NCBI RefSeq assembly: GCF_003008425.1 | Contig: NZ_PXOQ01000007.1 | Location: 248,001-312,000, forward strand | Length of the DNA stretch: 64,000 nucleotides | Reading direction: 5' to 3' | From: Aurantibacter aestuarii | GTDB lineage: Bacteria; Bacteroidota; Bacteroidia; Flavobacteriales; Flavobacteriaceae | Shown: positions 1,485 to 11,976 of the stretch, one piece after another | How the letters are laid out: every line of letters starts with the position of its first letter | Position numbering within the stretch: the stretch's first letter is position 1 | Position numbers and translations under genes: made by a program | Notes under the pieces: generated by a model | The model's input: only the letters and a program-made list of their open reading frames with translations | Database searches by the model: none | What the model was told of the DNA's origin: nothing

Positions 1485-1892
1485 TTATTGTTTTTCTAAT
1501 GTAATAACTTCGTTTTCTTTTGCTGGTAAAGCCTCCACAGAAATAATTTTTTTAATATTTATTCTAAAATCCCAGCCTTCTTCTCCTTCAGGTTTTTTTT
1601 CAATAAGTCCTTTAACTCGTGCTTTTACCATATCGGTATCTTGTTTTTTTAAAGGCTTAGCCATATTTACAAGTTCCTGACTTTTTTCATTCATAACAAC
1701 CCCAAACAAGCTTGTTGGTGTTTGAAAAACTGCAGCATCTGCATAGTAAATAAAATTACCTTCTAAAAGTGTAAAACCATCATTTTCGTCTTCAGAAGTG
1801 TTTACCACTTCATCTTGATTGTTTTCTTTTTGATCTGTCTTACACGCGGTTGCTATAAGGCATAAAACAATTAAAGTAATTACTTTTTTCAT
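1485..1892 (-). CDS. Small predicted lipoprotein of unknown function in the suf operon
   Basis: This 135-aa protein begins MKKVITLIVLCLIATACK, a lipoprotein signal peptide with the lipobox Cys at 17. An acidic low-complexity linker follows (DEVVNTSEDENDGF), then a folded region of about 90 residues with alternating beta and charged segments. I do not recognise the family. It sits 10 bases downstream of the metallo-hydrolase lipoprotein and 27 bases upstream of sufC, so it should be co-transcribed with both. The two lipoproteins may act together in the envelope; that is inferred only from position. Confidence 0.85.
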   Translation of the reverse strand: MKKVITLIVLCLIATACKTDQKENNQDEVVNTSEDENDGFTLLEGNFIYYADAAVFQTPTSLFGVVMNEKSQELVNMAKPLKKQDTDMVKARVKGLIEKKPEGEEGWDFRINIKKIISVEALPAKENEVITLEKQ

Positions 1893-1902
1893 GATTTACT
1901 TA

Positions 1903-2760
1903 TTAATACATACGTCTGTTATACGTGTTGAAATCATTTAAGTCATGCTGAATGATTACACGTGCATTTTTACTTTCTACAAATGTTTCAAAATCTTCAA
2001 TCGATTTTTGACTTTGTGGAATATCAAAATTAAATTGTGGAACAATACCCGATTCTCTATTTTCTCTAAAATGGTAAATGTCTCCAGAAAGTATTATTGG
2101 TCCTTCATTTGGCAAATCTAAAAACAATACTTGATGTCCAGCAGTATGTCCTGGCATAGATTTAATAATTACTGAACCGTCTCCAAACACATCGTAATCT
2201 CCATTAACAACCTCTTTATTTTCTAAAGTCGCAAAAGAACTTACATCATAAAACGCATTGTTTTTAATTTCAGGACTGTTAATAAAATCCATTTCTTTTT
2301 GTTGTACTATCCATTTAGCATTTGAAAACGCATTAGCTGCTCCTGTATGATCAAAATGAATATGAGAAAATGCAATGTGAGTAATATCTTTAGGTGTTAT
2401 TTTCAATTTTGCAAATTGATTCTTTAAAGAGTCTGGTCTTGATATAGTAAAAGCACCATCTGGGGTTGTGTAAGGTTCTTTCCCTACAATACCTTCTGGT
2501 AAACCTGTGTCCCAAAGTAACTTTCCTTTTGGATGATTAATGACATAATAGGCATTTGCTAAAAGTTTAGACTCTCCTTTATACGTCTCGCCTTGAGCAA
2601 ATATGTTTAAGTTGTTGGCTTTTATATTACCACCATCTAAAATGTATAAACTTATTTCGGGTTTGTCTGTAGTTTCTTCGACAGTTTCTGTATTTTTTTT
2701 ATCTTTTTTACAAGCAAAAACACTTACTAGAATGACGAATAGTATACTAAATCTTTTCAT
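1903..2760 (-). CDS. Metallo-beta-lactamase-fold hydrolase lipoprotein (AHL-lactonase-like family)
   Basis: This 285-aa protein has a lipoprotein signal (MKRFSILFVILVSVFAC, Cys17), so it should be exported and lipid-anchored. It has the MBL zinc motif HIHFDH (133-138), a later His in PGHTAGH, the bridging Asp in SGDIYHF and a C-terminal His in IIQHD. Together these give the two-zinc set of the fold. The WDTGLPEG and TPDGAFT stretches resemble members annotated as N-acyl-homoserine-lactonase-like. The actual substrate cannot be read from sequence. It starts 11 bases after the sufB stop and is followed 10 bases later by the small lipoprotein, so it is embedded in the suf operon. Confidence 0.9.
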   Translation of the reverse strand: MKRFSILFVILVSVFACKKDKKNTETVEETTDKPEISLYILDGGNIKANNLNIFAQGETYKGESKLLANAYYVINHPKGKLLWDTGLPEGIVGKEPYTTPDGAFTISRPDSLKNQFAKLKITPKDITHIAFSHIHFDHTGAANAFSNAKWIVQQKEMDFINSPEIKNNAFYDVSSFATLENKEVVNGDYDVFGDGSVIIKSMPGHTAGHQVLFLDLPNEGPIILSGDIYHFRENRESGIVPQFNFDIPQSQKSIEDFETFVESKNARVIIQHDLNDFNTYNRRMY

Positions 2761-4244: not shown

Positions 4245-4574
4245 TTAAAGTGAAAAAGATTCACCACATCCACATGTTCTGTTAGCATTTGGATTATTAA
4301 ACACGAAACCTGTACCATTAAGCCCACCCGAATATTCTAAGGTGGTTCCAATTAAGTACAGAAAACTTTTTTTGTCGACAATGATTTTTACACCATTATC
4401 TTCAAAAACCTTATCTTCTTCTTCTTGTTGTTTATCAAATTTTAAATCGTAAGACAAGCCTGAACAACCACCACTTTTAACACCAACACGCACATAGTCT
4501 ACTGCTGGGTTAAAACCATCATCGGTCATAAGCTCAATTACTTTTTTCTTAGCAATGTCTGATACTTTTATCAT
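4245..4574 (-). CDS. sufA: HesB/IscA-type Fe-S carrier (SufA-like)
   Basis: This 109-aa A-type carrier protein has the three family cysteines: Cys37 in GVKSGGCSGL, and Cys101 and Cys103 in the CGCGESF tail. A-type carriers receive clusters from the scaffold and pass them to apo-enzymes. It is the first gene of the suf operon, 24 bases upstream of sufB, with its own promoter box upstream. The sufA symbol rests on operon position; IscA or ErpA naming would also fit the sequence. Confidence 0.92.
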   Translation of the reverse strand: MIKVSDIAKKKVIELMTDDGFNPAVDYVRVGVKSGGCSGLSYDLKFDKQQEEEDKVFEDNGVKIIVDKKSFLYLIGTTLEYSGGLNGTGFVFNNPNANRTCGCGESFSL

Positions 4575-4680: not shown

Positions 4681-5757
4681 CTATTGATTTTGAAACGCAG
4701 GATTATTAACGAATTCTGGGTCTGAAAGCGTAAGAAGAAATGCTTTCAAATCGGCTCTATCTTGAGCTGATAATTGTACACCACCTTGATCGACTTTTTT
4801 CATTAATGGATCGATGGTAGGTGAATTAACTAAACCTTCACTATAATGATCTATAACCTCATCTAATGTTGCGAAACGCCCGTCATGCATGTACGGTGCA
4901 GTGTATTGAAGATTTCTTAAAGATGGTGATTTAAATTTTCCATCATCATTAGAGTCTCCTGTAACACCACCTAAACCTAAATCTGAAAAGGTGGCATCCA
5001 AACCATTGTTGTGAAATTTATTATCGGTCCATAATGGGTTATTAGGGTTTCCATGACAATGAAAACAGTCGCCTCGTGTTTCATCCATAAACACATCTAG
5101 CCCATTTTGTTCTTGAGGAGATAGAGAGACTTGCCCCAAAGTAAATTGGTCAAATTTAGAATTTCCGGAAATTAGTGTTCTCTCAAATTGAGCTATAGCC
5201 TTAACCACAAGCTCTTTAGTAATTGTAGCTGTTCCAAAAGCTCTATTAAACAAATTAGGATACTCTGGATGGTTTTGCAATTTTTCTTCCACATCTTCCC
5301 AGGATATATTTCCTAGCTCGTTAGCTTGTGTAACAGGTTCTAAAGCTTGAAGTTCTAAACTAAATTTATGTCCATCCCAGAAAAATTTTTCATCTAAATT
5401 CCAAGCTAAATTAAAAAGCGGCATCGAGTGCCTACTACCTGGTTGTCCATTTACCCCTAAGCTTAGAACTCTGTCATCTGAAAAAGCCTTTTGAGGAGCA
5501 TGGCAGCTTACACAAGCTAAACTGTTGTTTGCTGATAAAATTCTGTCAAAAAACAATTTTTTACCTAGAGCAACGCCTTCATTTGTTAATGGGTTTGAAA
5601 CCGGAATTAGAGGACTTGGAAGTTTTTGCTGAAACACTTCAGGTATTTGAAGCGCAAAAGGAATTGGTTCATATGCATCTTCAGAAGTCTCATTTTCGTC
5701 CTTTGAACATGATACTACTAAAATACTTAAACTTAATATGATGAACCAATATTTCAT
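4681..5757 (-). CDS. Diheme cytochrome-c peroxidase family lipoprotein, MbnH/MauG-like
   Basis: This 358-aa protein has a lipobox (SILVVSC, Cys17) and two c-type heme sites, CVSCH (82-86) and CFHCH (231-235), as in the bacterial diheme peroxidase / MauG superfamily. The conserved PLFNLAWN and FFWDGH segments and the late PYMHDGRFATLDEV segment also fit. Members either reduce peroxide or, as in MauG and MbnH, carry out oxidative protein modification. It follows the MbnP-like gene by one base and is the last gene of a five-gene operon. That pairing is the known MbnP/MbnH arrangement, in which MbnH converts a Trp of MbnP to kynurenine. A plain peroxidase role cannot be excluded. Confidence 0.9.
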   Translation of the reverse strand: MKYWFIILSLSILVVSCSKDENETSEDAYEPIPFALQIPEVFQQKLPSPLIPVSNPLTNEGVALGKKLFFDRILSANNSLACVSCHAPQKAFSDDRVLSLGVNGQPGSRHSMPLFNLAWNLDEKFFWDGHKFSLELQALEPVTQANELGNISWEDVEEKLQNHPEYPNLFNRAFGTATITKELVVKAIAQFERTLISGNSKFDQFTLGQVSLSPQEQNGLDVFMDETRGDCFHCHGNPNNPLWTDNKFHNNGLDATFSDLGLGGVTGDSNDDGKFKSPSLRNLQYTAPYMHDGRFATLDEVIDHYSEGLVNSPTIDPLMKKVDQGGVQLSAQDRADLKAFLLTLSDPEFVNNPAFQNQ

Positions 5758-5758
5758 T

Positions 5759-6556
5759 TTAATTATTTGAAATTGTTCCTATAGAAAAAACACTTGCAAC
5801 ATTTTGCTGCATCATTTTTTGTGCTGTATAATTAGGCATTAATGGTGTGTCCAGAACATTTAAGTCCCATGTATTAGGGTTTCTAAAAAGCTCAGCAATG
5901 TTCATTTTTAACTCAATTTCTGTATTTCCAGCTATTAAAATATCTGTATCAAAAGCAAATGTCACAAAGTTTTGCTCAAACTCTCCTGCTGCGTTTTTTG
6001 CTGTACCATTATGAAAATTAAATGGCATTGGTGAAGCTGTGTCTACGTTATATTTACCATCAAACTGTAAAAAGTGGTAACCTCCACCTAAACCTTGAGG
6101 CCAACCCCAAGATGCAGCATTTAAATCTACATAAACTCCATCTACATTATCTTCTTCATTAAAACCCCAAACCATACTTAATTTATAATTGCCAAGAGGT
6201 ATTTGAATATCGGAAGTAAAATTATAGGTGGTTTCATCAGAAATATCTAACAAATTGTAGTCCTTTAGCTTATAAACTGTTCCTGTTTCTACGCTGGTTA
6301 ATTCCAATTTAGAAATTAAATATCGGATACGCTCTGCACGTAATACCTCTCCATTTTCATTGGTTAAAGTAAGCGTCGTGAAATTAGTATTATCCACCAA
6401 AGTACCATCAAAATCATTGCTTAATTTAAAATCTACTGAGGTCATTGGAGTTGTTACGTTTGTAGGAACAAACGGAGTCGCATCATCGTTATCTTCTGCA
6501 CAGCTTAATACCCCTAATCCTATAAAGATAAAAGCAAAAAATTTAATTAATTTCAT
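5759..6556 (-). CDS. MbnP-like copper-binding family lipoprotein
   Basis: This 265-aa lipoprotein (lipobox GVLSC, Cys19) has the pattern of the MbnP family. An N-terminal beta segment (VDFKLSNDFDG) is followed by RIRYLISKLELT, then a central aromatic block with Trp130, Trp150 and Trp152 and the GYHFLQFDGKY stretch (159-169), and a PFNFHNGTA stretch with His182. In known MbnP proteins copper binding depends on a Trp-derived kynurenine made by the partner MbnH. The gene ends one base before the diheme peroxidase gene starts. Which Trp might be modified cannot be told from sequence. I know of family members outside methanobactin operons, and no methanobactin genes are visible here. Confidence 0.82.
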   Translation of the reverse strand: MKLIKFFAFIFIGLGVLSCAEDNDDATPFVPTNVTTPMTSVDFKLSNDFDGTLVDNTNFTTLTLTNENGEVLRAERIRYLISKLELTSVETGTVYKLKDYNLLDISDETTYNFTSDIQIPLGNYKLSMVWGFNEEDNVDGVYVDLNAASWGWPQGLGGGYHFLQFDGKYNVDTASPMPFNFHNGTAKNAAGEFEQNFVTFAFDTDILIAGNTEIELKMNIAELFRNPNTWDLNVLDTPLMPNYTAQKMMQQNVASVFSIGTISNN

Positions 6557-6576
6557 AAGTTAAGAGTTATAATTAT

Positions 6577-7923
6577 TTAGTTTATTTTGATTATTAACGC
6601 ATCTGTAAAACCATTATTATTAGATAAATCAAAATTGTTACTGGTTGTTTCTCCAACAGCAATAATACTACCATCATTTAATTGAGTAACATCATAAGCA
6701 AAGTCAAACTCACTACCTCCAATAGTTTTTAGCCATAATACAGCTCCAGTTTCATCTATTTGCACAACTAATGCATCATTTTGTCCGTTGTTAGTCGAAA
6801 TAAAAGCATTTTCACTACGAGAACTACCTGAAATTAAATAACCATTAGCACTTTTAGTTATACTACTTGCAGTATCAAAACTCGCGCCTCCAATGGTTTT
6901 TTCCCATATTAAATTACCGTTTTCATCTATTTTAATAAGCCATAAATCGGAATCGCCGTAATTTACACTAACATCGGTATCATCACTTCTGGTATTTCCT
7001 ACAATAATAAAATTATTATCTGATGTTTTAATAATCCCATGAGCTTCATCAATTTGGGTTCCTCCAAAATTCTTTTCCCATAATAAAGCTCCTGTATCTG
7101 AAATTGAAACAACCCAATAATCGTATGACCCTTTATTATTAGAGATGTCTACATCTGCACTATCAGACGCTCCAACTAAAATAAAATTTCCAGAACTTGT
7201 TTCAGCCACACCAAAAGGATCATCAGATAAATTTCCTCCAAAATATTTTGTCCATTCCTGATTACCTGTGGCATCTAATTTAACCGCCCAATAATCTCCT
7301 CCAGCATGTAATTGATTATTTGCCTGTAACGTGTTGCCTTGTCCTGCTGAAGCAGTAACATCTAGCACCCCTGAAATTAAATAGCCTGAATCTTGAGTTT
7401 GTATGATTGCATAAGCACGATCTGACCCATTAAATCCAAATGATTTTTCCCAAGTAATGTTTCCAGAGCTATCTAATTTTGTAATCCAAAAATCCTGATT
7501 CCCAAAATTTTGAGAGACATCGCCATCACTACTAGAAGCGTAGCCCGTTAGCACAAAACCACCATCTTGAGTAGCTATTAAATCGGCCCCTTTTTCATCT
7601 AAACTACCGCCATAAGTTTTAGACCACAATAATTCATCTGCTGCATTAAATCTTAACAACCAATAATCGTAACTCGTGTCTGATTTGTCGGTAATATCTA
7701 TATCGATAGATTGTGTTTCACCAAAAACAGCATAACCGCCATCCTGTAATTTCACTACAGCACTAGCTAATTCATTTTTACTGCCTCCAAAATTTTTAGC
7801 ATATTGCAAACTAACTGTTTGTGGGTTTTGGGGTTGATTTGCAACTGGTGCTACAAAATCATCATCTGACTTACATGCCAAAACAACCAATAAACACCCT
7901 AAAACAACAGTTATATTTCTCAT
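6577..7923 (-). CDS. Repeat-containing surface lipoprotein, predicted beta-propeller
   Basis: This 448-aa lipoprotein (lipobox LLVVLAC, Cys17) is built from about seven repeats of roughly 55-60 residues. Each has the form WxKxxGGxxxDxAxxIxxTxDxGxxIxG, then an Asp-rich loop such as DVDISNNKGSYDYW, then a strand with IDExGxxxWEK. This pattern is common in Flavobacteriaceae exported proteins and predicts a beta-propeller. No catalytic motif is visible. The Asp-rich loops could bind calcium, which is inference. It lies 3 bases after the upstream lipoprotein gene and 20 bases before the MbnP-like gene, so all should be on one mRNA. Confidence 0.85.
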   Translation of the reverse strand: MRNITVVLGCLLVVLACKSDDDFVAPVANQPQNPQTVSLQYAKNFGGSKNELASAVVKLQDGGYAVFGETQSIDIDITDKSDTSYDYWLLRFNAADELLWSKTYGGSLDEKGADLIATQDGGFVLTGYASSSDGDVSQNFGNQDFWITKLDSSGNITWEKSFGFNGSDRAYAIIQTQDSGYLISGVLDVTASAGQGNTLQANNQLHAGGDYWAVKLDATGNQEWTKYFGGNLSDDPFGVAETSSGNFILVGASDSADVDISNNKGSYDYWVVSISDTGALLWEKNFGGTQIDEAHGIIKTSDNNFIIVGNTRSDDTDVSVNYGDSDLWLIKIDENGNLIWEKTIGGASFDTASSITKSANGYLISGSSRSENAFISTNNGQNDALVVQIDETGAVLWLKTIGGSEFDFAYDVTQLNDGSIIAVGETTSNNFDLSNNNGFTDALIIKIN

Positions 7924-7926
7924 ATT

Positions 7927-9294
7927 TTATTGTTTACGTACAATAAACATACCACGCTCAATATCACCAATTACAATATTACCACTTTGAAAATAAGGGT
8001 AAATGCTCCAAACACCATTAAACGCAGCACTATCACTTGATGGAAACGTGTCTATAAAATGAGTTTCTGTCATTGCGTTAGATGAATTTCCAATGTTATC
8101 TAAATTAAGAATTCGCATTCCAGCTCTATAATTAGCTAAATAATACTCATTTCCTTTTACATAACCATTGTGATCTATAGCAGCTGTAGGACCCGTATAT
8201 GTTGAAGACAACGTTGGATTATCTAAATCTGAAAAATCAAACACCAAGGTCTTTGTATTAAACCCAAAACTAGTTTCATCCAATTCGTCTCCTAAAATAA
8301 AATAACGTTGATCCTCTGTAAACCAGCCTTGATGTGCATATGCAGTTTGCGGATAAGTAAATTCACTAATTGAAATTACATTATTTTTATCTGTAACATC
8401 TAAAATAGCAACAGTATCGGTATTTCCATTACTTCCTATATATATTTCTTTTCCTTGATAATCTGGATCTGGGCCATTATAGGTAACCACTTGAGCATCA
8501 TGAGAATATCCAGCTGCTTCATAATCGTTTATAAATGTAGGGTTTGTTGGGTTAGATATATCTACAAAAATAGGTCCTCCATTATTTGTTGTGTTACAAC
8601 CTACTAAATATGCTACTGCTTCAGATTCGTTTATAACAATATTATGACATTTTCCAACACCAGTAAACAAGGCATCTACTGTAAAATCTTCAGGAGGGTT
8701 TGCTACATTTCGTAAACGGGTTAAATCAAAAACCTGCATACCATGAGAGTTATTTGAATTTCCATCAGCTACAATAAATGCGTGATTATTATAAACCTTA
8801 ACATCTCTCCATGGTGCAGTACCTTGAGCTGTTGCAATTCTTCCTAAATTAATTGGTGCAGTTGGATCTGAAATATCTACAAAAGCTGTAGCATTAGTTA
8901 ATCCAATAATAGCGTATTCCTTACCTGTGGAAGCATCGGTCCAACCCCAAACATCACTACCTTCTGCTGTAGAATTTCCAGCTAAAACATCTGTTGAAAA
9001 AACACTCATGACATCAATCCCATCACAAGGAAAAGGTCCGGCCATTCCATTAACACATGGAAATAATGGGGTGAAATTACTTGATTCACAAGCATCTCCT
9101 ATACCATTATTATTAGTATCTGCCTGATCTGGATTTGGAATGCTTGCACAATTATCGTTAGCATCTGGAACTCCATCTCCATCAGTATCCTCAGCTTGCA
9201 CCACTACTGGAGTAGTTCCATTAACATCATCGTCGCTCTTGCAGTTAGAAAAAAGCAAGCCTATTGCTAAAAATACTAGTGTATATTTTTTCAT
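7927..9294 (-). CDS. Choice-of-anchor B (LVIVD-repeat) lipoprotein with thrombospondin type 3 repeat
   Basis: This 455-aa protein has a lipoprotein signal (LLFSNC, Cys18). Next comes a calcium-type TSP3 repeat (DTDGDGVPDANDNC, followed by DTNNNGIGDAC), then a long LVIVD-repeat region predicted to be a beta-propeller (AFVDISDPTAP, FVDISNPTNP, AILDVTDKNNV). The repeat domain is closely related to the product of the gene just upstream (9305-10801), with shared runs such as DVKVYNNHAFIVADG and HGMQVFDLTRLR, so the pair looks like a tandem duplication. This copy has no T9SS tail and is anchored by lipid. It starts 10 bases after its paralogue ends. The substrate is unknown. Confidence 0.88.
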   Translation of the reverse strand: MKKYTLVFLAIGLLFSNCKSDDDVNGTTPVVVQAEDTDGDGVPDANDNCASIPNPDQADTNNNGIGDACESSNFTPLFPCVNGMAGPFPCDGIDVMSVFSTDVLAGNSTAEGSDVWGWTDASTGKEYAIIGLTNATAFVDISDPTAPINLGRIATAQGTAPWRDVKVYNNHAFIVADGNSNNSHGMQVFDLTRLRNVANPPEDFTVDALFTGVGKCHNIVINESEAVAYLVGCNTTNNGGPIFVDISNPTNPTFINDYEAAGYSHDAQVVTYNGPDPDYQGKEIYIGSNGNTDTVAILDVTDKNNVISISEFTYPQTAYAHQGWFTEDQRYFILGDELDETSFGFNTKTLVFDFSDLDNPTLSSTYTGPTAAIDHNGYVKGNEYYLANYRAGMRILNLDNIGNSSNAMTETHFIDTFPSSDSAAFNGVWSIYPYFQSGNIVIGDIERGMFIVRKQ

Positions 9295-9304
9295 TTTGTA
9301 TGTT

Positions 9305-10801
9305 TTATTTTACAATTAACTTTTTAGTTACTTTATTATTTATAGTAACTAAATAAACTCCAGACTTAAAATTACTTAAATCTAACTTATATTCTGTTTT
9401 ATTTAAACTAAGAACTTCTTTTACTTTTTGACCTAATACATTATGAATCTTAACGTCATTTATAGGAAAATTAGTATTTGATGAAAAAAGAACTTCTGTT
9501 TCTGCCGGGTTTGGCGACATCGAAAATGTGTTTTCTAAGTTAAATTCATCAACACTTAGTGTATTACTTTGTCTAACAACAAACAAACCTCTTTCTATAT
9601 CACTTATTATTATATTTCCACTAGCGAAGTAAGGATAGACACTCCATGCACCATTAAAATTTGCTGAATTACTCGCTGGATAGGTATCAAAATAACCAAC
9701 CTCAGTCATAGGAACTGGAGAAGATATATTTGCTAAGTCTAAAACTCTCAAACCAGCACGATAGTTGGCTAAGTAAAATTTATCTCCTTTAACATAACCA
9801 TTATGATCTATTGCGCGCTCTGGTCCAAAATAAGTTCTTGTTAAACTAGCGTCTGTATCAAAATCTGCATCTAAATCATTAAAATCAAATATCAACGTTT
9901 TTGTATTGAAGCCAAAAGACTGTTCATCAACCTCATCACCCATTATAAAATAACGTTGGTCGTCTGTAAACCAACCTTGGTGTGCGTATCTTGTTTGAGG
10001 ATAAGAAAATTCGTTTATAGGTATTACATTATTTTTATCGGTTACATCTAAAATAACCACTTTATCTGTATTACCATTACTACCGATATAAATTTGACGA
10101 CCTATTATTCCATTTGCTGGATCATAATAGTCTAAATCCGGACCAGTATAAGTCACAACCTGAGCATCGTGAGAATAACCTCCAGCTGTGTAATCATTTA
10201 AAAAAGTAGGGCTTGTAGGATTAGAGATATCAATAAAAATAGGTCCGCCTCCATTAGTAGAGCTACAGCCTACTAAATAAGCAATCGCTTCAGATTCATT
10301 TATAACAATGTTATGACAACTACCTACACCAGTATAAACGGCGTCTGCAGTATAGGTACCATTCACAGAAGCTTCCGATCTTAGTCGTGTTAAATCAAAC
10401 ACTTGCATACCGTGACTACCTACACCATCGGCAACAATAAACGCATGATTATTATATACTTTAACGTCTCTCCAGAAATTTGTACCTGCATTAGTATCTA
10501 CACGTCCTAAAAAAACAGGATTTAAAGGATCTGTTACATTTACGAATGCAGTACTATTTGTAGTCGCTACAATTGCATATTCATTATTGTTTAATGGATC
10601 TGTCCATCCCCAGATATCACTACCTTCAGGATTTCCAAGAGTATTTGCAAGTACCGAAATAGGCACATTAGACATTAAATCGTAATCGTTACAAGGGTAA
10701 ATTCCTGCCATATTAGTGTTAGTATCACATAGGGTTTGAGAGACTAAAACTGAATTATAAAACAACAAAAAACTTACAAAAAGTACGTAATTTTTAATCA
10801 T
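9305..10801 (-). CDS. Choice-of-anchor B (LVIVD-repeat) protein with T9SS C-terminal sorting domain
   Basis: This 498-aa exported protein has a signal peptide of about 21 residues ending SQT, an LVIVD beta-propeller region and a C-terminal type A T9SS sorting domain over the last 75 or so residues (FSMSPNPAETEV, VLGQKVKEV, FKSGVYLVTINN, TKKLIVK). It should be carried across the outer membrane by the type IX system and placed on the surface. It is the first gene of a five-gene operon and is paralogous to the next gene. The conserved MAG..PC...D-(L/V)-MS block precedes the repeat domain in both copies. Confidence 0.9.
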   Translation of the reverse strand: MIKNYVLFVSFLLFYNSVLVSQTLCDTNTNMAGIYPCNDYDLMSNVPISVLANTLGNPEGSDIWGWTDPLNNNEYAIVATTNSTAFVNVTDPLNPVFLGRVDTNAGTNFWRDVKVYNNHAFIVADGVGSHGMQVFDLTRLRSEASVNGTYTADAVYTGVGSCHNIVINESEAIAYLVGCSSTNGGGPIFIDISNPTSPTFLNDYTAGGYSHDAQVVTYTGPDLDYYDPANGIIGRQIYIGSNGNTDKVVILDVTDKNNVIPINEFSYPQTRYAHQGWFTDDQRYFIMGDEVDEQSFGFNTKTLIFDFNDLDADFDTDASLTRTYFGPERAIDHNGYVKGDKFYLANYRAGLRVLDLANISSPVPMTEVGYFDTYPASNSANFNGAWSVYPYFASGNIIISDIERGLFVVRQSNTLSVDEFNLENTFSMSPNPAETEVLFSSNTNFPINDVKIHNVLGQKVKEVLSLNKTEYKLDLSNFKSGVYLVTINNKVTKKLIVK

Positions 10802-10929: not shown

Positions 10930-11976
10930 ATGATTGAAGATAAAAACACAGAGAAAACAGATTTAAGTGCCTTAGGTGAATTTGGTTTAATTGAACATTT
11001 AACTAGAAACTTAACCATAAAACAAACTTCTACTATTAAAGGTATTGGAGATGATGCAGCTGTTCTAGAACCTGGAGAGAAAAAAATTGTTGTCACTACA
11101 GACTTATTGGTTGAAGGTGTTCACTTTGATTTAAGTTATATGCCTTTAAAACATCTAGGTTACAAATCGGTTATTGTAAATTTATCTGATGTTTATGCCA
11201 TGAATGCCAATGCAACTCAAATTACGGTTTCTATAGCGGTTTCAAATCGATTTCCATTAGAAGCTTTAGAAGAGTTATATGCTGGTATTGAAACTGCAGC
11301 AGCTATATATGGTATTGATGTTATTGGCGGAGACACCACGTCTTCTACAAAAGGCTTATTAATTTCTGTAACCGCTATAGGCGAGGTTAAAACGGAAAAA
11401 ATAACCTACAGAAATGGCGCAAAACCAAATGATTTACTTGTTGTAACTGGTGATATTGGCGCCGCCTATTTAGGTCTACAGGTGTTAGAACGCGAGAAAG
11501 AGGTTTTTAAAGTAAACCCTAATAACCAACCAGACCTAGATGCTTATACTTATATCATTGAACGCCAGCTAAAGCCGGAAGCTCGTAAGGATATTGTAAA
11601 GCTTTTAGAAGATTTAGACGTGATCCCAACTAGTATGATTGACATTAGCGATGGACTTTCTTCTGAAATTTTACATTTATGTAAAGCCAGTAATGTGGGT
11701 TGCGATTTATATGAAAACAAACTACCTCTTGATCCACAAGTAATTTCTACTGCGGAAGAATTTAATATGGATAGTACCACTATTGCCTTGAGTGGCGGTG
11801 AAGATTATGAGTTACTTATGACCATTTCTCAAGACGATTTTCCTAAAATTAAAGCAAATCCTAATTTAACGGTAATTGGCTTTATAACTGAAGAAAGTTT
11901 AGGTGCGCATTTAGTTACCAGAGCAGAAACTAAAATACCATTACAAGCACAAGGCTGGAAAAATTTTGAAAATTAA
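10930..11976 (+). CDS. thiL: Thiamine-monophosphate kinase
   Basis: This 348-aa protein matches ThiL. It has GIGDDAAV (38-45), TTDLLVEGVHFD, NLSDVYAMNA (ThiL usually reads NLSDLAAMGA), VIGGDTTSS (131-139), a central RPxARxD-like stretch (KPEARKDI), MIDISDGLSSE and ALSGGEDYELL. It phosphorylates thiamine monophosphate to the cofactor thiamine diphosphate in the cytoplasm. It stands alone here with no other thi genes. Its last four bases overlap the end of the convergent alpha/beta hydrolase gene. The promoter box directly before the ATG suggests a leaderless transcript. Confidence 0.96.
   Translation: MIEDKNTEKTDLSALGEFGLIEHLTRNLTIKQTSTIKGIGDDAAVLEPGEKKIVVTTDLLVEGVHFDLSYMPLKHLGYKSVIVNLSDVYAMNANATQITVSIAVSNRFPLEALEELYAGIETAAAIYGIDVIGGDTTSSTKGLLISVTAIGEVKTEKITYRNGAKPNDLLVVTGDIGAAYLGLQVLEREKEVFKVNPNNQPDLDAYTYIIERQLKPEARKDIVKLLEDLDVIPTSMIDISDGLSSEILHLCKASNVGCDLYENKLPLDPQVISTAEEFNMDSTTIALSGGEDYELLMTISQDDFPKIKANPNLTVIGFITEESLGAHLVTRAETKIPLQAQGWKNFEN

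Follow-up and report, generated by a model that had tools for sequence, protein, structure and literature searches.

The stretch of Aurantibacter aestuarii (Flavobacteriaceae) DNA analysed here, called the window (64,000 nucleotides of contig NZ_PXOQ01000007.1, positions 248,001 to 312,000 of the forward strand), raises the question of what an MbnP/MbnH pair does in an operon shared with beta-propeller proteins. Five closely spaced open reading frames (ORFs) span positions 4681-10801 on the minus strand, with inter-gene gaps of 1, 20, 3 and 10 bases, and are transcribed in the order: choice-of-anchor-B (anchor-B) propeller with a type IX secretion system (T9SS) tail, anchor-B propeller lipoprotein, SBBP-type propeller lipoprotein, MbnP, and MbnH-like di-haem enzyme. 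An earlier sequence-only reading had recognised this exported five-gene operon, with an MbnP-like lipoprotein and a di-haem MauG/MbnH-like gene one base apart behind two LVIVD propellers and a repeat lipoprotein, and all of this stood. Its proposal of a surface system capturing copper (or another metal) was supported only in part; no feature observed in the operon suggests copper. MbnP and MbnH have co-diverged, and the operon clade has lost the Met of the copper site throughout and the kynurenine-place Trp in most members. The leading explanation for a conserved MbnH beside an MbnP lacking parts of its site is a changed target or product, a reading to which we assign a rough probability of 0.42. 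The operon would then encode a surface module whose oxidase probably goes on modifying MbnP, with a result other than the described copper site.

The lipoprotein encoded next to the enzyme belongs to the MbnP family by Pfam and by fold, in agreement with the sequence-only reading. It matched PF20243 with 84.4 bits (cut-off 27), and its predicted model (mean predicted local distance difference test score, pLDDT, 91.2) matched the solved MbnP 7l6g_D with Z 16.3 over 210 aligned residues at a root-mean-square deviation of 3.3, the next structure reaching only Z 5.8. The NCBIfam model TIGR04052 (MbnP_like_WxW, cut-off 140) gave no hit to the window MbnP; it matched 17 of 64 operon-type MbnPs at E-values up to 0.1 (best 3.1e-9), and its cut-off was likewise missed by three non-operon pair MbnPs (27-54 bits). 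A profile of seven GGGYH-type proteins (named after a conserved motif) failed to find 7l6g, so the link of that type to MbnP rests on the MbnP profile and the tree. The window's own genome contains a single MbnP.

The neighbouring enzyme matched CCP_MauG (E 1.2e-53) and, as the sequence-only reading had expected, aligned with MbnH: among solved structures MbnH 6e1c comes closest (E 2.6e-51), followed at a distance by the best peroxidase (1e-34) and the best MauG (1.2e-21). The TIGR04039 cut-off of 362.85 was not reached by the window MbnH (248.7), by two other operon MbnHs scanned (240.6 and 269.1), or by the MbnHs of four pairs and of one anchor-B operon whose enzyme is canonical-type (198-226). 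Both CxxCH haem motifs, Trp127, Glu147 and Tyr305 are kept in 42/42 enzymes of the operon clade, and the enzyme is intact also in the five whose MbnP partner has Phe150. Tyr305 aligns with Met258 of the peroxidase 1iqc, presumably an axial haem ligand, and is Tyr in 42/42 operon, 19/19 intermediate and 22/29 pair enzymes (sets defined below). Tyr at the axial-Met place of the peroxidases is a trait of MauG-type enzymes.

The copper site of MbnP was reportedly described in 2021 (PNAS) as composed of His, Met and kynurenine, the last formed from the first Trp of a WxW motif; we take the Met place to be that of the copper ligand and the first Trp to be the kynurenine precursor. Four sets of MbnP were compared: 42 proteins of the operon clade, 20 intermediates (GGGYH-type, from other families), 29 from pairs, and three canonical-type operon proteins. 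The GGGYH-type pairs were reached via a search of 196 genomes of the order, from which 20 regions were fetched; MbnP was called in 19 of them (20 proteins) and MbnH in 19, with the MbnP of L260 missed by the ORF caller and no MbnH in L268. For GGGYH-type proteins with three residues after Pro, M-x-W-P-x3-GGGYH matches W150-x-[V/W]152-P-x3-GGGYH without gaps, and this register, fixed by Pro and GGGYH, assigns residue 150 to the Met place and residue 152 to the place of the kynurenine Trp. The W-G-W of the window protein had first been taken as a canonical WxW, an assignment dropped after GGGYH-type proteins of other Flavobacteriales families were added.

In the pairs, Met, first Trp and His are each present in 29/29 proteins and correspond in the alignment to GMAWNW and VHVGS of 7l6g, and the intermediates have Met (17/20) or Phe (3/20), followed by Trp (20/20) and Pro (19/20). 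In the operon clade, residue 150 is Trp in 37 and Phe in five of the 42 proteins and Met in none, and residue 152 is Val in 33 and Trp in nine, the window protein (W152) being among the Trp keepers. The near relatives of the window show Trp (74/81) or Phe (7/81) at residue 150 and Trp (69/81) or Val (12/81) at residue 152. His182 is kept in every set (42/42, 20/20, 29/29 and 3/3), and H161 of GGGYH in all 81 near relatives and all 42 operon-clade proteins. The sequence-only reading had named, as grounds for abandoning it, an MbnP-like protein that falls outside MbnP and lacks a conserved Trp, or five genes that do not stay together in related genomes. Neither ground fully applies: the protein groups with MbnP, and the genes stay linked in most sampled relatives with this type of MbnP. 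The Trp, present in the window protein, is gone from most of its clade.

In the joint tree (41 operon-clade rows, L093 excluded as a long branch; midpoint root for drawing only), the operon clade and the GGGYH-type proteins formed one group of 60 rows (100/95), the operon clade itself being supported at 100/100. One of the 20 intermediates, L269, is canonical-like and falls with the pairs. If the root lies on the canonical side, the most economical order would be replacement of Met by Trp in the ancestor of the operon clade, a single change of Trp152 to Val, because the nine Trp152 keepers fall outside a 100/99 clade of Val proteins, and replacement of Trp150 by Phe in five proteins that group with weak support (83/80).

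Two Trp residues set the operon clade apart. W230 of MbnP is Trp in 42/42 operon-clade proteins, and in 0/20 intermediates, 0/29 pairs and 0/3 canonical-type operon proteins. W243 of MbnH is Trp in 42/42, and is replaced in the intermediates (F 18, T 1; n=19), in the pairs (F 28, Q 1; n=29) and in all three canonical-type operon proteins. Each of the two gains is placed at the clade's base. As many other MbnH residues also differ there, the gains hint at a new oxidation path without proving one.

MauG is known to oxidise a Trp of its partner protein, and so is MbnH. On the changed-target-or-product reading, MbnH, with two haems as in MauG, would still oxidise a Trp of MbnP; W152 would still be possible in the window protein, and W230 would be the best candidate clade-wide. 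The product would be a protein-derived site other than the described His/Met/kynurenine copper site, serving the surface propellers, and in a speculative further step this site might deliver metal to, or mature, the His-rich anchor-B propeller. The most specific version, in which the pair changed its target as W230 and W243 were gained at the clade base where Met was lost, the kynurenine Trp was later lost in most, and a different, so far undescribed protein-derived surface site serves a metallo-beta-propeller, is doubtful as a whole.

Several points weigh against a changed target or product. More than thirty further MbnH residues also split the operon clade from the pairs, so little can be read into a single shared Trp gain as a sign of a new oxidation path, and W230 may be structural only. 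W230, H161, H182 and W152 are compared here by sequence position, and in the model the strands E163-169 and E177-183 have a parity that may put H161 on the face opposite H182. Three of the 20 intermediates have likewise exchanged Met for Phe and still keep Trp, so the absence of Met is by itself no sure sign of a new function. Finally, W152 in 69 of the 81 near kin fits a kept kynurenine site there.

This last point leads to the main rival, that kynurenine-copper chemistry is kept at W152 in the window's own lineage, which we regard as possible, though on the unlikely side. MbnH would turn W152 into kynurenine as part of a surface copper capture system, forming a Cu(I) site with His182 and perhaps a substitute for the lost Met. 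Since W152 is kept in the window and most near relatives, kynurenine at W152 of the window protein is possible, lacking the Met ligand and not as a clade-wide feature. Besides W152, His182 and the fold match to 7l6g, the comparison with MopE and CorA is in favour: the consulted part of the CorA paper describes copper binding by two His and kynurenine and names no Met, so loss of Met alone need not end copper binding. On the other side stand the loss of Met in 42/42 proteins and the Val at residue 152 in 33/42, across genera, while operon and MbnH persist. The claim of a copper site with a peroxidase-made cofactor is thus supported in part, through the identities of MbnP and MbnH, W152 and His182; in view of the two losses, its copper-site mechanism is not supported in the form proposed.

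The gene neighbourhood offers copper capture no help: neither the five genes nor the flanks scanned showed a copper gene. By contrast, an MbnP/MbnH pair outside the operon (L106) adjoins a receptor whose top NCBIfam match is a TonB copper receptor, a weak match at 89 bits against a cut-off of 472, with a haemoglobin/transferrin receptor model almost level at 88 bits; a weak YtkA-like protein adjoins it as well. A T9SS-tailed YHYH-domain protein follows the pair at L109:7176-8588. The window's five genes and scanned flanks showed no neighbour like those of L106 and L109, a contrast which is consistent with, and no proof of, a move away from copper.

The next explanation concerns the propellers as substrates. 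Both upstream propellers contain LVIVD repeats and match the choice_anch_B model TIGR04312 (509 and 473 bits, cut-off 100). The model of the anchor-B lipoprotein (pLDDT 88.5) is rich in strands, and its structure matches are propellers: the best Foldseek match is the phosphotriesterase propeller 5hrm (E 1.2e-12, TM-score 0.57/0.53), and a second structure comparison gave generic WD40-type propellers only (Z 29.9-31.0) among the matches listed. Five conserved His (184, 217, 265, 321 and 375) each lie within two residues of a strand start in the model. His 217, 265, 321 and 375 are kept in all 66, and His 184 in 63, of 66 anchor-B proteins from pair-bearing loci; the respective values are 22, 22, 22, 22 and 21 of 22 in pair-less loci, and 23, 23, 23, 23 and 22 of 23 outside the family (seven of 30 "phylum" proteins belong to the family and were left out). 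The near-invariant His near the strand starts of the model suggest an undescribed metal site in the anchor-B (TIGR04312) family. In a comparison for propeller residues specific to MbnH-bearing loci six positions differed, none of them convincingly.

By analogy with mtoX-SCO1-mauG, MbnH and MbnP could together mature the anchor-B or SBBP propeller, MbnP acting as adaptor or metal carrier, which is quite unlikely. It would account for the five His near strand starts and accord with the similarity to 5hrm, and the consulted part of PMC5739008 provides a published analogue. The same His and Trp are equally conserved in 22 anchor-B proteins without MbnP/MbnH, and the His likewise in the 23 from outside the family; 22-23 sampled genomes keep both propellers without the pair. 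Since no residue of the propellers clearly tracks MbnH across loci, they would not be its obvious targets.

That MbnP is a degenerate scaffold beside an MbnH kept as a surface peroxidase would fit the di-haem peroxidase superfamily of the enzyme and the eroded site, and is very improbable given Tyr305 at the Met258 place of 1iqc in 42/42 enzymes, the strong conservation of MbnP (25 invariant columns among 64 sequences) and its position next to MbnH in 80/80 kept loci.

The partnership with the propellers, which the changed-target-or-product reading builds on, is well conserved. In a GTDB scan that found 468 relatives, of which the best 80 were kept (a set biased to near relatives of the window), propeller, MbnP and MbnH followed in order in 80/80 loci with median gaps of 6 and 7 bases. 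An SBBP-gene orthologue preceded MbnP in all 80, and the anchor-B gene was in view in 77, the contigs of the other three starting within the SBBP gene. In a family survey of 149 genomes, each of a different genus, MbnP was found in 71 genomes at 79 places (G124 was counted twice, its gene being split between two contigs): 48 with both propeller types upstream, 30 with a MauG-type neighbour only, and one with neither. The arrangement of propeller genes with MbnP/MbnH is beyond chance, and the five genes were together in most sampled relatives having operon-type MbnP, a co-occurrence that the sequence-only reading had proposed to check across Flavobacteriaceae. Its remark that the propeller partners are foreign to the described MbnP/methanobactin setting also held, with the addition that they are co-conserved with MbnP/MbnH.

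Of 71 full-length propeller places, 23 lacked MbnP downstream, mostly in the same slot between the flanking gene at 10930..11976, which we take to be thiL, and the suf genes. In the SBBP tree one branch (100/97) splits 22 pair-less loci from 48 pair-bearing ones, with no pair-less locus inside the 48, so a single gain or loss of MbnP/MbnH suffices to explain the sampled loci. The pair-less anchor-B and SBBP loci (L032-L054, 23 genomes) lie mostly between thiL and sufA, and one of these genomes (G075) has a canonical MbnP/MbnH pair elsewhere. The 42 operon proteins form one clade in each of the MbnP and MbnH trees (100/100). These trees leave out repeat entries of one gene, the split G124 gene and the rows of G079, G102 and G105 (missed by the ORF caller or off the contig end). 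Three operons (G096, G087 and G118) hold a canonical-type MbnP/MbnH in the same slot, set apart in both trees, and a fourth anchor-B operon, that of G102, which is absent from both trees, has a pair-like MbnP score of 156.6 bits. With two MbnP/MbnH lineages in one slot, the partnership with the propellers looks selected. Operon-type and pair-type MbnP are probably not redundant, because five genomes carry both (G017, G063, G068, G076 and G091). On the favoured reading, the exported module of anchor-B propeller(s), SBBP-type propeller, MbnP and MbnH is vertically inherited in Flavobacteriaceae, many marine members of which have it.

Outside the family (f1), no anchor-B gene beside MbnP was found among the matches listed for 198 phylum genomes, compared by eye, and the GGGYH-type pairs of other families were without the two propellers alongside. 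Five other-family loci gave weak anchor-B profile matches of 26-45 bits, in some probably due to a shared T9SS tail; the anchor-B-profile homologue of L252 is an M43 peptidase with a T9SS tail. At L126:7004-8458 the MbnP frame continues into the MbnH region, by fusion or frameshift, and this locus was omitted from the alignment for folding.

Export of the operon's products, also part of the sequence-only reading, is indicated by the T9SS sorting tail on the first gene and by the lipobox of the four downstream proteins, followed by SKDEN, AEDND, KSDDD and KSDDD; all four have two or more acidic residues after Cys. Such stretches resemble the Bacteroidetes lipoprotein export signal of PMC5080379, where, in the part consulted, C-X-K-(D/E)2 is optimal in Capnocytophaga, and the S-K-D-E after the Cys of the window MbnH matches that form. 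Across the 80 kept loci a lipobox was called in MbnP 77/80, SBBP 74/77 and MbnH 74/80, and two or more acidic residues among the five after Cys occurred in 72/77, 52/74 and 31/74 of these lipobox-bearing proteins, respectively. On these signals MbnP is likely exposed on the cell surface; with the acidic signal weak in the MbnH of many species, surface exposure of MbnH in general is uncertain.

Among known systems the nearest is MbnP/MbnH of Methylosinus trichosporium OB3b (7l6g, 6e1c), which shares the MbnP fold, the nearest solved MbnH, the adjacent genes and the aligned His, and from which the operon clade differs in having no Met at the ligand place, a mostly lost kynurenine-place Trp, propeller partners and predicted surface lipoproteins. 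No methanobactin genes (mbnA, mbnB/mbnC) were seen among the five genes and scanned flanks, the rest of the genome not having been searched for them. MopE/SACCP and CorA/CorB of methanotrophs similarly pair an exported protein with a di-haem c-type enzyme. The consulted part of the CorA paper describes kynurenine-copper sites in CorA and MopE, and these copper-repressed proteins, each with two His and kynurenine, are likened here by description, not by sequence. In mtoX-SCO1-mauG, a mauG-like gene is thought, according to the part of PMC5739008 consulted, to act beside a copper beta-propeller, the SBP56 methanethiol oxidase, which is likewise a His-conserved propeller encoded with a MauG-like enzyme. 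The propeller family here is another one, and MbnP stands instead of SCO1: no SCO1 match was found in the five genes and scanned flanks, no SBP56 propeller was among the matches listed in either fold search, and 28 anchor-B proteins gave no SBP56 Pfam match. The Sphingobium TCM1 haloalkylphosphorus hydrolase (phosphotriesterase) 5hrm resembles the anchor-B propeller at a TM-score of only 0.57/0.53 with a weak sequence signal (E 0.44), and the beta-propeller fold is common and shows no function. The 5hrm enzyme presumably holds a metal pair.

Table 1. Window coordinates of the module's genes, the residues discussed and the slot borders.
Feature	Position	Strand	Evidence
Choice-of-anchor-B (LVIVD) beta-propeller, T9SS type A sorting tail (first gene)	9305..10801	-	TIGR04312 473 bits; Por_Secre_tail
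Choice-of-anchor-B (LVIVD) beta-propeller lipoprotein with TSP3 repeat	7927..9294	-	TIGR04312 509 bits
SBBP-repeat-type beta-propeller lipoprotein	6577..7923	-	LipL53-family SBBP model, 47 bits, below cut-off 400
MbnP-fold lipoprotein, operon-specific subfamily	5759..6556	-	PF20243 84.4 bits; model; 7l6g match
Di-haem MauG/MbnH-type lipoprotein	4681..5757	-	CCP_MauG; nearest solved relative 6e1c MbnH
MbnP W150 codon, canonical copper-ligand Met place	6107..6109	-	W 37, F 5, M 0 (n=42)
MbnP W152 codon, canonical kynurenine-forming Trp place	6101..6103	-	V 33, W 9 (n=42)
MbnP H161 codon, GGGYH motif	6074..6076	-	His 81/81 near relatives; 42/42 operon clade
MbnP H182 codon, conserved His	6011..6013	-	aligns with a His of 7l6g (via pair-type proteins)
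MbnP W230 codon, Trp of operon clade only	5867..5869	-	42/42 vs 0 in comparison sets
MbnH first CxxCH haem motif, residues 82-86	5500..5514	-	42/42
MbnH second CxxCH haem motif, residues 231-235	5053..5067	-	42/42
MbnH W243 codon, operon-specific Trp near second haem motif	5029..5031	-	42/42 vs 0 in comparison sets
MbnH Tyr305 codon, aligned to Met258 of Nitrosomonas peroxidase 1iqc	4843..4845	-	42/42
Flanking gene, AIR-synthase-related; slot border, outside module	10930..11976	+	PF00586; same flank in most loci
Flanking iron-sulphur assembly gene, sufA-like; other slot border, outside module	4245..4574	-	PF01521; same flank in most loci

A copper or iron-sulphur role read from the thiL and suf neighbours was ruled out, because most loci without MbnP/MbnH occupy the same slot. 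The single promoter box of the sequence-only reading does exist as a TAnnTTTG match at 10836-10829, but is by itself no evidence, the pattern being rarer in the window than expected by chance (74 against 112). Matches of a sigma-70-type scan of the window were also below chance (21 against 30.9 expected), terminator patterns scanned were at or below chance, and a plasmid search gave no match. Elsewhere in the window (1485-2760), genes for a metallo-beta-lactamase-fold lipoprotein and a small lipoprotein lie between sufB and a sufC-like ATP-binding cassette (ABC) gene, and in some related loci genes similar in size and start also come after sufB.

Neighbours of MbnP/MbnH pairs elsewhere were diverse. 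At L264:3047-13330 a GGGYH-type pair keeping Met and Trp has ABC transporter genes as neighbours, along with genes for a TonB receptor, a YtkA-like lipoprotein and an M43 peptidase. In several genomes of family f48 (L251-L259, L267 and L270), one or two large genes come after the GGGYH-type pair; at L252, the sole f48 locus scanned, the genes there encode a radical SAM protein and two M43 peptidases with T9SS tails. Small CNGKC or CNGTC proteins recur beside non-operon pairs, and those at L106:10155-10523 and L110:5109-5495 had no Pfam or NCBIfam match.

No published function for a module of an exported MauG-type enzyme and five-His propellers was found among the matches listed, in a search that left subscription journals mostly uncovered, and no literature was found on choice-of-anchor B by name. 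The module brings a MauG-type enzyme and five-His propellers into one exported unit. With the operon clade, MbnPs offer a natural series, from Met and Trp both present to Met gone and then Trp gone, for probing recognition and oxidation by MbnH. The MbnP/MbnH pairs of genomes are read as kynurenine-copper systems, and the operon clade of Flavobacteriaceae warns against calling every MbnP a copper protein.

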